Assembly (NCBI RefSeq): GCF_014640155.1
Contig: NZ_BMGK01000001.1
Coordinates: 310,001 to 374,000, forward strand
DNA length: 64,000 bases
Source: Planktosalinus lacus
Lineage (GTDB): Bacteria > Bacteroidota > Bacteroidia > Flavobacteriales > Flavobacteriaceae
Direction: 5' to 3'
The position numbers and the translations under genes were made by a program. Position 1 is the stretch's first letter. Each line of letters begins with the position of its first letter. Under the pieces are notes generated by a model that did not search any database, was not told the origin of the DNA, and saw only the letters and a list, made by a program, of their open reading frames with translations. Shown piece after piece: positions 30,990 to 44,141 of this stretch.

Positions 30990-31251
30990 TGTTTAGGGAA
31001 TTTTACGCCAAAATATGAAAATACAACTATTTACTAATTAAAATTGTATGAATGTATCATAATGTTGTATAAATGTTAAATTTTATGCCGGATTTTTATT
31101 AGTGCATTCGTTTAATTATAAATGCTAAATTACCTTTAATGAAATAAAATTGACTATCTATAAAGATTTCTAAACCAGTTAAATATATTCTACTTAGTAT
31201 TTATAGGTTTTTGATAAACTTTGTAGAATACAAATAAAAATCAGTTCAGTT

Positions 31252-39047: not shown

Positions 39048-39097
39048 TTATAATGAGCTAATTTTAGACCACAAAATTCTAATTATTTTTGCTCTCC

Positions 39098-39115
39098 AAT
39101 GTTACCAAAATGTTA
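39098..39115. promoter_or_regulatory. Direct repeat AATGTTA-N4-AATGTTA, candidate PhoB-type box (PiT side)
   Basis: Two exact AATGTTA copies with 11-bp period (CCAA between). Read on the minus strand, this is TAACATT repeated, close to the TTAACA pairs of PhoP boxes. A near-consensus minus-strand -7 box (GAATTTTG, plus 39072-39079) places the repeat centre at about -40 from the PiT transcription start. Confidence 0.5.
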
Positions 39116-39247
39116 TCTGTTTTGTGGATTTCAATTAAAATTAAAAGGTGTTTTTTGCTATATAGTAAACGAAATTTTGGTTTCCAATGTTAAATTTTCT
39201 AATTATCAAACATTGTAAATGACAGATAAACAGTGTGATAAATCTAC

Positions 39248-39265
39248 AATGTTAAGATAATGTTA
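39248..39265. promoter_or_regulatory. Second AATGTTA-N4-AATGTTA direct repeat (MORN-gene side)
   Basis: Again two exact AATGTTA copies with 11-bp period, here with AGAT between. A single further AATGTTA lies at 39186-39192. The pair ends 8 bases before the -33 element of the 39332 gene. Confidence 0.5.
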
Positions 39266-39273
39266 CTAAAACA

Positions 39274-39304
39274 TTTCATAAATGTAAAATAATGCTTATA
39301 TTTG
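39274..39304 (+). promoter_or_regulatory. Promoter TTTC-N19-TATATTTG
   Basis: A perfect -7 box (39297-39304) with a one-off -33 element (TTTC) at the optimal 19-base spacing, 27 bases before the ATG at 39332. Confidence 0.6.
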
Positions 39305-39331: not shown

Positions 39332-39697
39332 ATGAAAAATATAATTTTAACCCTTGCGATAGTCCTTTTTAGCACTCAAATTTTTGCTCAAGATACTCCA
39401 AATAAAAAGTTGATTAAAAATGGAGATCTTATTGAAGCACAGATATTTCATGATAATGGAATTGTAAGTCAAGAAGGTCAATATACTTTAGACGGAAAAT
39501 TACAAGGAACCTGGGTAAGTTATGATGTTGAAGGAAATAAAACAGCCGTTGCAAAATACAACAACGGACAAAAAACCGGAACCTGGTATTTTTATGAAGG
39601 AGAAACTCTTAGTGAAGTGAAATACAACAACAATAAAATTGCGCAAGTAAAAACCTGGAAAGAAGGGGAAACACAAATTGTAAGTAATTTTGAATAA
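39332..39697 (+). CDS. Exported MORN-like repeat protein
   Basis: 121 residues. A signal peptide (cleaved after IFAQ, about residue 20) is followed by consecutive MORN/YwqK-like strands: IEAQIFHDNGIVSQEGQYTLDGKLQGTW, YDVEGNKTAVAKYNNGQKTGTWYFYEGE and EVKYNNNKIAQVKTW. Such proteins are often labelled YwqK antitoxin-like, but no toxin lies beside it, so that label is not supported here. It is probably a periplasmic or outer-membrane-associated protein. It shares the repeat-containing intergenic region with the phosphate transporter. Confidence 0.78.
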   Translation: MKNIILTLAIVLFSTQIFAQDTPNKKLIKNGDLIEAQIFHDNGIVSQEGQYTLDGKLQGTWVSYDVEGNKTAVAKYNNGQKTGTWYFYEGETLSEVKYNNNKIAQVKTWKEGETQIVSNFE

Positions 39698-42699: not shown

Positions 42700-43938
42700 T
42701 TAATATGCATTATTTTGAGAGGCAAGTGTCCAAGAGAAAACATTTAAGTTTGCTCCAACAGTTGCGTTTGCAGGTGAACTAATAACTGTTACATTATCTG
42801 TAAACAAGTTTTCTAAACCTACAGGCGCATCTTCCAATAAATCTACTGCATTTGCAACTCCGGCAGGTAATACTATTTCCCAGTTTGAAAAGTTCAATCT
42901 TCCATTTGCATATTCAGTTTGAGAATCCTCACCACTAATTCTGATTGTTGAAGTAGCACTGATGTCATATACCAACACATTGTTTAGGCTTGCCAAAAGT
43001 CCGTCTCTAAAATCAGCAGTTCTGCTACTAATTCCTCCACCAATTATTGTAATGTTATTCATTGTAAATGAGTCTTCTGTAGCTGAAGAACCTTCAGGTC
43101 CGTCAAGCTCTAATCCACTACCTGATGTTGCACCTTGAATTACCAACCCATTTGAAATGGTTCCTGAGTATGCTTGATCTGCATCAAAACCATCATCACC
43201 ACAACCCCAAACAAGTAAGTTTGAAGAATTTACTGTTCCACCAAACCACTCAATTCCATCGTCTTGATTTGCTACAACTTCTATGTTGTCAATGATAGTT
43301 CCAGATCCAACACCACCAAGAGTTAAACCGTTGATTTCGTTGTCCTGACCAATCGTAATACCACCGTGTCTTATTGATATATATCGTATGATCCCTGAAT
43401 TGTCATTTGGAGTTGTTCCTCCATATTGACCATAAGGCTCGTTTGCCGGGATACCTTCAATTTGAGCTGTTTCTAAATCTCCACTTACTGAGATTGGAGC
43501 TCTACCTAAAACAATTACTCCTCCCCAAAGACCGGCATCCTCAACTGTTAAATTTGAACCAGCAGTTTCTCCCACTTGAATGTCATCTAAAATTGAAGTA
43601 AAAATGATTGGCTCACTTGCAGTTCCATCGGCAATGAGTCTTCCTCCTTGGTCAACAATTAAGGCAGAAGCCAAAGTCTCTTGACCTTGCTCACCTTTAA
43701 CAATTGTACCAGGCTCAATGGTTAAAGTTACACCTTCATCTACCACAACTTTTCCATCAAGAACATAAATATTCTCTGAGGTCCAGGTTTCGTTTTCAGT
43801 AAGTATTCCATTTTTTACAATGATATCACCTTGACCACCATCATCGTCATTTGATATTGGTCCATCATCATCTCCGCTGCAACTTGTGCCTAATCCAAGA
43901 ACTGCAATTGATACTATGGATAAAAAGAATTTTTTCAT
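42700..43938 (-). CDS. Surface-exposed lipoprotein with beta-helix-like domain
   Basis: 412 residues. The signal peptide ends in a lipobox (LGLGTSC, Cys near 20), and SGDDDGPISNDDDGG follows immediately. That acidic run resembles the lipoprotein surface-export signal of Flavobacterium and Capnocytophaga, so it is probably displayed on the cell surface. The rest is repetitive, Gly/Asn-rich and beta-strand-rich (VDEGVTLTIEPGTIVKGEQG, LWGGVIVLGRAPIS, NNITIIGGGISSRTADFRDG), consistent with a right-handed parallel beta-helix. It lies just upstream of the TonB-dependent receptor and could be its ligand-capture partner. Substrate unknown. Confidence 0.82.
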   Translation of the reverse strand: MKKFFLSIVSIAVLGLGTSCSGDDDGPISNDDDGGQGDIIVKNGILTENETWTSENIYVLDGKVVVDEGVTLTIEPGTIVKGEQGQETLASALIVDQGGRLIADGTASEPIIFTSILDDIQVGETAGSNLTVEDAGLWGGVIVLGRAPISVSGDLETAQIEGIPANEPYGQYGGTTPNDNSGIIRYISIRHGGITIGQDNEINGLTLGGVGSGTIIDNIEVVANQDDGIEWFGGTVNSSNLLVWGCGDDGFDADQAYSGTISNGLVIQGATSGSGLELDGPEGSSATEDSFTMNNITIIGGGISSRTADFRDGLLASLNNVLVYDISATSTIRISGEDSQTEYANGRLNFSNWEIVLPAGVANAVDLLEDAPVGLENLFTDNVTVISSPANATVGANLNVFSWTLASQNNAY

Positions 43939-44141
43939 AATTTTTGTTTTTAATTGAAATTATAGATTGTTTGAATTTTTGATGTCACAAAGAAAGTCCA
44001 ACATTGTAAAGTTGGTGTTACATGAAAATTAAGTGTTTGTCATTTCAAGGTTATGTTAACGTTAATTGCATTTACTTTTCTTTACATACCGCCTTTTTAC
44101 TTAAAGTAGTATCTTGCAGAAATAAAATTCACTTTTTTAAT

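Follow-up and report, generated by a model that had tools for sequence, protein, structure and literature searches.

The 284-bp intergenic region between a PiT-family phosphate transporter gene (minus strand) and a MORN-like gene (plus strand) of Planktosalinus lacus holds five copies of the heptamer AATGTTA, and this raises the question of whether the copies are the binding sites of a phosphate regulator and, if so, which genes they serve. In the window, that is, the whole 64-kb stretch of DNA that was analyzed, the copies lie at positions 39098-39104, 39109-39115, 39186-39192, 39248-39254, and 39259-39265. All five have the same orientation and form two exact pairs with an 11-bp period plus one single copy, exactly as a first, sequence-only reading of this DNA had described them. 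Read on the minus strand, both pairs are TAACATT-N4-TAACATT. This is the layout of the Pho box, long known as a direct repeat of 7-bp half-sites with an 11-bp period (as described in the available part of PMC4415409), and the layout is kept in relatives. An unpaired TAACATTG stands at a place similar to that of the single copy in 9 of 30 loci of the MORN-like gene, that of P. lacus included. The features of the region and of a second locus discussed below are collected in Table 1.

Table 1. Features of the PiT/MORN-like region and of the lipoprotein locus, with coordinates in the window
Feature	Position	Strand	Evidence
PiT-family phosphate transporter, 755 aa	36780..39047	minus	Pfam PF01384 PHO4, E 1.7e-30
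Predicted PiT promoter -7 element GAATTTTG	39072..39079	minus	sequence; TTTG at 39075-39072
Putative Pho-type box of PiT, TAACATT-TTGG-TAACATT	39098..39115	minus	25.5 bits, top box of 64 kb
Single TAACATT half-site	39186..39192	minus	sequence
Second exact pair, TAACATT-ATCT-TAACATT	39248..39265	minus	18.6 bits, second box of window
Degenerate 11-bp copies (plus strand AACATTT, AATGTAA)	39266..39287	minus	by eye
Predicted -7 element of MORN-like gene TATATTTG	39297..39304	plus	sequence; same place in relatives
MORN-like gene, signal-peptide-like N-terminus, 121 aa	39332..39697	plus	ORF; match in 174/199 family genomes
TonB-dependent receptor, 941 aa	39756..42581	minus	Pfam PF00593 + PF07715
Lipoprotein-like secreted gene, 412 aa, no family	42700..43938	minus	ORF; Pfam/NCBIfam without match
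TTTG of predicted lipoprotein-promoter -7 element	43988..43991	minus	sequence
Six phased 11-bp copies, TAACGTT, TAACCTT, TGACAAA, TAATTTT, TAACACC, TTACAAT	44003..44064	minus

Short repeats in AT-rich intergenic DNA can arise by chance, and the composition of this region and the lack of a genome-wide excess (see below) both speak for such an origin, which is nevertheless almost certainly wrong here. When the intergenic region was simulated with a first-order Markov model, 0.023% of 200,000 runs contained at least one exact pair, and no run contained more than one. When any 7-mer was allowed, as a post-hoc control, two exact 11-bp pairs appeared in 24 of 20,000 simulated runs. Above all, chance is refuted by the conservation of fixed spacings across genera that is set out in the following paragraphs. 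In the whole genome (2,965,096 bases), the two pairs are the only exact occurrences of AATGTTA-N4-AATGTTA. The pattern as such shows no genome-wide excess: with at most one mismatch it was found at 8 places versus 9 for the backward control pattern, TAACA-N6-TAACA at 14 versus 23, and a longer promoter pattern at 36 versus 58. With at most three mismatches, the 64-kb window contained 22 matches versus 24.4 expected. The absence of an excess over the backward control means that the bare pattern does not predict the regulon, and motif counting was replaced by position-specific comparison with relatives.

The -7 element of the PiT gene follows the consensus TAnnTTTG and places a predicted transcription start near 39065. 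Relative to this start, the two copies of the PiT-side pair lie at about -50 and -39. The pair had been described as centered about -40 of the predicted PiT start, which holds for the transcription start (about -41) but not for the ATG, which is about 59 bp from the center. A search of 60 genomes gave PiT relatives in 42, one of them that of P. lacus. The comparison draws on 29 of the other 41 genomes, each represented by its best locus, with no fetched locus left out. In each, the best match to TAACATT-N4-TAACATT before the gene was taken as the box, with the spacing to the promoter playing no part in the choice. The gap between the box and TTT[GA] was exactly 22 nt in 23 of the 29 orthologues. 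The six without a box in register (L014, L019, L021, L033, L034, and L037) include two near misses, namely, L037, which is a single base off, and L019, where TTAG takes the place of TTT[GA]. A sequence model made from the promoters of the 23 relatives, with P. lacus itself left out, returned the PiT box of the window as the first match genome-wide (E 3.4e-7). By this comparison of sequences, the pair on the PiT side is an element of the promoter that has been conserved.

A box matrix trained on these 23 PiT promoters alone was then applied to both strands of the window, where the highest scores fell at 39098 (25.5 bits), 39248 (18.6 bits), 44047 (15.4 bits), and 31061 (14.4 bits). The first three of these correspond to the PiT pair, the other pair of the same intergenic region, and a site before the lipoprotein-like gene, which suggests that all three are PhoB-type Pho boxes. 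The fourth, TAACATT-TATA-CAACATT at 31061-31078 on the minus strand, lies 87 bp before a gene that at its start resembles a response regulator and is not known to have a link to phosphate.

The same matrix was carried over to other gene classes in relatives, a box being called strong at 8 bits or more and in register at 4 bits or more with TTT[GA] 11 or 22 nt on. Strong boxes were present before 25/25 porins, all of which match PF07396 (OprP-like), before 25/28 copies of a small RNA (sRNA)-like element described below, and before 3/12 pstS genes, 6/27 genes of the PhoX family, and 1/18 LysR-type genes. Boxes in register were present in 24/25, 20/28, 4/12, 0/27, and 1/18 cases, respectively. 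The pstS set comprised the 12 loci with strong PF12849 matches (the second copy in the genome G085, which is the 13th strong match, was left out), and the control set comprised 18 loci with weak PF12849 matches that are LysR-like by their N termini, the two tested both being LysR. The PhoX family matched in 30 of 120 genomes, most matches being partial, and 27 of the 30 loci fetched had enough upstream sequence. Association with phosphate uptake genes is therefore clear for PiT (23/29, the training set) and for the porins (24/25) when set against the LysR-type genes (1/18). For pstS, a rank test against the LysR-type genes gave a P value of 0.07. Several pstS genes (e.g., L210, L212, and L216) directly follow a porin-like gene, where a box of their own would not be needed; all were kept in the count. 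The counts thus link the box strongly with PiT, the porin, and the sRNA-like element and weakly with pstS, and for the PhoX family none is in register.

In the genome of P. lacus itself, PiT is the only phosphate transporter found among those sought (PiT, PF12849, and PF07396). The only PF12849 match reaches 21.7 bits, below the cut-off of 27, and profile searches of this genome found neither PhoX nor PF07396 porins. The genome-wide search with the promoter model scored 150 of 4,119 candidates and listed 22 matches, among which only PiT has a significant E value. The second pair is absent from the matches listed genome-wide, yet it scores 14.0 bits in the search of the window.

Two OmpR-family response regulators are encoded in the genome. 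One of them, C4, has as the best of its 100 NCBIfam matches the PhoB model TIGR02154 (219 bits, below the curated cut-off of 296.2), and the kinase downstream of it matches PnpS with 241 bits and PhoR with 225 bits, both below their cut-offs. The genome therefore contains a candidate PhoB-PhoR pair in which both partners score below the curated cut-offs. The stretch RTIDVHIRKLR of the PhoB candidate closely resembles the recognition helix of Escherichia coli PhoB. A further box, TAACATT-AAAG-TAACATG, lies in the intergenic region upstream of phoB and points to the divergent gene; the next TTTG follows 17 nt on, outside the 11/22 register, and among the genome-wide matches listed, numbers 2 and 4 to 15, at or in genes for which no phosphate role was seen, outrank this site. 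The divergent gene encodes a 284-residue protein with a type IX secretion system (T9SS) sorting domain, and next to it lies a stretch with a weak resemblance to LuxE (64 of 550 bits), the two together being at L059 5647-7553 in the genome of P. lacus.

The second OmpR-family regulator, C5, which is found behind a large sensor kinase, might bind the boxes in place of PhoB. OmpR-family sites look alike, the genome offers two such regulators only, and a related case comes from Riemerella, a flavobacterial relative of the same order. The motif of Riemerella anatipestifer PhoP, a protein that may correspond to either of the two regulators here, was called ArcA-like by its authors (in the available part of PMC9603813). 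Against this stands the set of genes at which the boxes are found, namely, PiT, the porins, some pstS genes, and the phoB intergenic region, which together form a phosphate set, and C5 is an improbable candidate. The pairs are instead very probably operator sites, i.e., Pho boxes, of the PhoB-family response regulator of this lineage, with a half-site TAACATT every 11 bp. The proposal that they define the Pho box of the lineage draws support from the fixed spacing at PiT (23/29), from the strong boxes at porins (25/25) and at the sRNA-like element (25/28), and from the box in the phoB intergenic region; it is weakened by the lack of a genome-wide excess, by the few strong boxes at pstS (3/12), by the PhoX family (0/27 in register), and by the 17-nt offset of the phoB-side box. 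The six PiT orthologues that have no box in register, the sub-cut-off score of the PhoB candidate, the E value of 0.20 of the lipoprotein site in the genome search, and an OprP of Flavobacterium johnsoniae that was not induced (see below) also count against it. The predicted site is of an ordinary kind and is well supported as a Pho box of Flavobacteriaceae.

The sequences, their conservation, the fixed spacing, and the link with PiT and porin genes are direct observations, and we infer both the binding of PhoB and the sign of its effect. At the PiT box, phosphorylated PhoB would most likely recruit RNA polymerase to the TAnnTTTG promoter at low phosphate, activation being favored because no pstS was found in this genome. 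The sign at PiT could also be negative, given that pit of Sinorhizobium meliloti is repressed under phosphate stress (available part of PMC8829014).

The second pair presents a different geometry. It points away from the MORN-like gene that it adjoins and is thus inverted relative to that gene, and its end lies 35 nt before the TTTG of TATATTTG at 39301-39304 (counted by hand in the window), in agreement with the earlier placement of this pair just upstream of a good promoter for the gene at 39332. Degenerate copies continue the array into the MORN-like promoter, to about -24, and third or fourth copies are clearer in the relatives L017, L026, and L027. The name MORN-like comes from the initial sequence-only reading; the protein matches no Pfam family and has one NCBIfam match far below the cut-off (26.9 of 250 bits). 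Relatives of the gene occur in 174 of 199 genomes, and 30 loci were fetched, that of P. lacus included. An opposite-strand box of at least 8 bits precedes the gene in 29/29 of the other loci, versus 4/29 for a sense-strand box. The array is the best box in 22/30 loci, and in 17 of those 22 the TTTG follows exactly 35 nt on; in the remaining 8, that of P. lacus among them, the scan picked the PiT box instead. As with the 22 nt at PiT, the position relative to the core promoter is therefore fixed. The array is kept whether the divergent neighbor is PiT, a porin, or aspS (a class II tRNA synthetase with a GAD domain), and in three loci no divergent gene was recognized. A recurring stretch around TTTTCAGT, seen by eye in L097-L124, lies about 20 nt beyond the inverted array toward the divergent gene.

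Because the second pair shares the orientation of the PiT box and is found some 150 bp further upstream, it might be a distal helper site of PiT and not an element of the MORN-like gene. This is very unlikely, since the pair is kept before the MORN-like gene where the neighbor is a porin or aspS (L113, L119, and L120) and since its distance to the MORN-like -7 element is 35 nt in 17/22 loci. A box in register does occur in 11/29 MORN-like loci on the strand directed away from the gene; these 11 are other boxes further off, mostly that of the sRNA promoter (as told from positions and sRNA sequences), once the PiT box (L115) and once the single half-site (L105), and never the array. The idea that the second pair is the promoter of a lost porin was dropped, as the array is kept also next to aspS. 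The two pairs are not equivalent: the second is an element of the MORN-like gene and has the opposite orientation to that gene.

The second pair would accordingly be read as the operator of the divergent MORN-like gene, at which bound PhoB most likely blocks the promoter, given that its inverted copies extend to about -24. That PhoB represses this gene is a guess, held with little better than even confidence. Activation despite the inverted orientation is the less probable choice, with perhaps one chance in three. It is favored by the 5-mers TGTTA of the array, which by hand count occupy the same register as TAACA at other promoters, only inverted, and by a MORN-like promoter in which no clear -33 element was seen. 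It is disfavored by the in-register boxes elsewhere, which point toward their gene, with none on the other strand at PiT (0/29), the sRNA-like element (0/28), or the porin (0/25).

The third box of the window belongs to a longer array before the lipoprotein-like gene, whose six copies lie at about -83 to -28 of the predicted promoter. When all 1,317 TTTG sites in the window were scored for 11-bp copies from -28 to -83, this promoter came first (26.3), PiT second (20.8), and the third site far behind (6.8), and all six copies of the lipoprotein array score positive. By the sequence model, the site has an E value of 0.0039 in the window and is the third of the 22 genome matches listed (E 0.20). 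The six-copy array would control the nearby lipoprotein gene. The gap between this gene and that of the TonB-dependent receptor contains a terminator-like hairpin and, by eye, no box. Structure prediction of the lipoprotein was unusable (mean pLDDT 38), and no convincing relative was retrieved from the PDB (best E 0.19); the protein may or may not be one of the FI/FII/FIII lipoproteins of F. johnsoniae.

In many relatives, an element of about 100 nt lies between the MORN-like gene and a porin and is composed of a -7 element, a core TATTAGTTTTTGTCGACTA, and an intrinsic terminator. The core pattern AGTTTTTGTCRACT was found in 94/199 genomes and a covariance model of the putative sRNA matched in 44/149, the genome of P. 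lacus being negative in both cases; in the window, the model gave nothing convincing (best E 0.029). For 12 loci, Rfam returned 23 matches up to an E value of 1, all below gathering scores. In a fold derived from 23 sequences, 9 of the 14 predicted pairs have both partners changed, mostly within the terminator stem. Thirty loci were fetched, and L151 and L154 were dropped as coding-like; the loci with the element lie among L125-L153. The predicted sRNA promoter has a box with TTT[GA] in register in 20/28 loci, so that porin and sRNA would be under a single regulator.

The porin leader, i.e., the 18 to 29 nt after TTTG, holds the complement of the core in 25/25 loci, this set being the one that remained when L133, L135, and L150, in which no porin start was found, were also dropped. 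Duplex energies of the 25 cognate pairs range from -16.9 to -31.0 kcal/mol. The cognate mean of -23.2 kcal/mol is lower than that of all 20,000 swapped assignments (mean, -20.95 kcal/mol; the kinship of the genomes is ignored), and leaders with shuffled letters gave a mean of -10.1 kcal/mol. In 24/25 loci, the base of the leader that adjoins the core is paired as well, the exception being L126, and L139, L152, and L153 carry double changes from T-A to A-T. Where the sRNA has ATCG, the leader has CGAT in 5/5 cases versus 0/20 for the others, again with the kinship of the genomes ignored. Complementarity to the target leader is therefore conserved, and the element is a candidate phosphate sRNA that seemingly pairs with the leader of the porin mRNA. 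Immediately ahead of the start codon, the pstS leaders of L209 and L211 have GACAAAAA or CAAAAACTAATA, a portion of the site that the sRNA would target.

Taken together, these elements can be assembled into a tentative circuit, to which we give somewhat less than an even chance. PhoB would drive PiT and the OprP-like porin as well as, out of one shared intergenic cluster, the sRNA, whose exposed core TATTAGTTTTTGTCGACTA would pair with most of the 18- to 29-nt porin leader and partly with some pstS leaders. The porin would be switched on and capped at once, as in an incoherent feed-forward loop, and the inverted array would repress the secreted MORN-like gene. To our knowledge, such a loop has no precedent in the phylum Bacteroidota. 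In the genome of the window, the porin and the sRNA were not found and the boxes are kept.

A defined Pho box of Flavobacteriaceae would let the phosphate regulon be predicted from sequence in a group that is common in marine, freshwater, and plant-associated habitats and for which the searched papers list regulated genes and name no box. Two less ordinary consequences would follow, the inverted array with its strict position before a conserved secreted gene and the candidate phosphate sRNA. The conserved array is a first functional handle on the secreted MORN-like gene (174/199 genomes), and the sRNA, if true, would add to phosphate control a post-transcriptional level that is open to testing, in a phylum in which few sRNAs have been studied.

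In the literature searched, which consisted of open-licence papers only, neither a Pho box of Flavobacteriaceae nor the present sRNA is named. The nearest binding data are those for R. anatipestifer PhoP, which in DAP-seq gave 583 peaks and a motif with TTTAACA as its most conserved bases, a core that it shares with the boxes described here (PMC9603813, available part). The same part of that paper reports a two-component regulator as upregulated in phosphate starvation; it describes neither an sRNA nor direct repeats with an 11-bp period, and the term "direct repeat" is absent from the text. In Flavobacterium johnsoniae, the available part of PMC8115612 describes a phoBR cluster and, among the genes with strong phosphate induction, TonB receptors and hypothetical lipoproteins, gene types that also occur at the lipoprotein locus here. 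That work lists regulated genes, with no binding motif named in the part available, and its Table 1 gives OprP (Fjoh_0542), which is encoded beside phoBR, as not induced (fold change, -1.3; not significant). The PhoB paper on Bacteroides fragilis names the Pho box once, without its sequence, in the part available (PMC3547664). Rfp18 of Flavobacterium psychrophilum is likewise a conserved sRNA from flavobacteria for which a strong fold is predicted; its predicted and tested targets are metalloproteases, and "phob" occurs 0 times in the available text (PMC9723704). Set against the present element by description only, Rfp18 may be identical to it.

The closest parallel in architecture is the Pho box of E. 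coli PhoB (CTGTCAT, 7 + 4 bp), with which the boxes described here share the direct 7-bp half-sites and the 11-bp period. They differ from it in the half-site TAACATT, in the -7 element TAnnTTTG, and in the inverted array at the MORN-like gene. The PiT box also lies one 11-bp step further upstream than in E. coli, and the porin boxes of relatives, where they end 11 nt before TTTG, occupy what we take to be the register of E. coli phoA.
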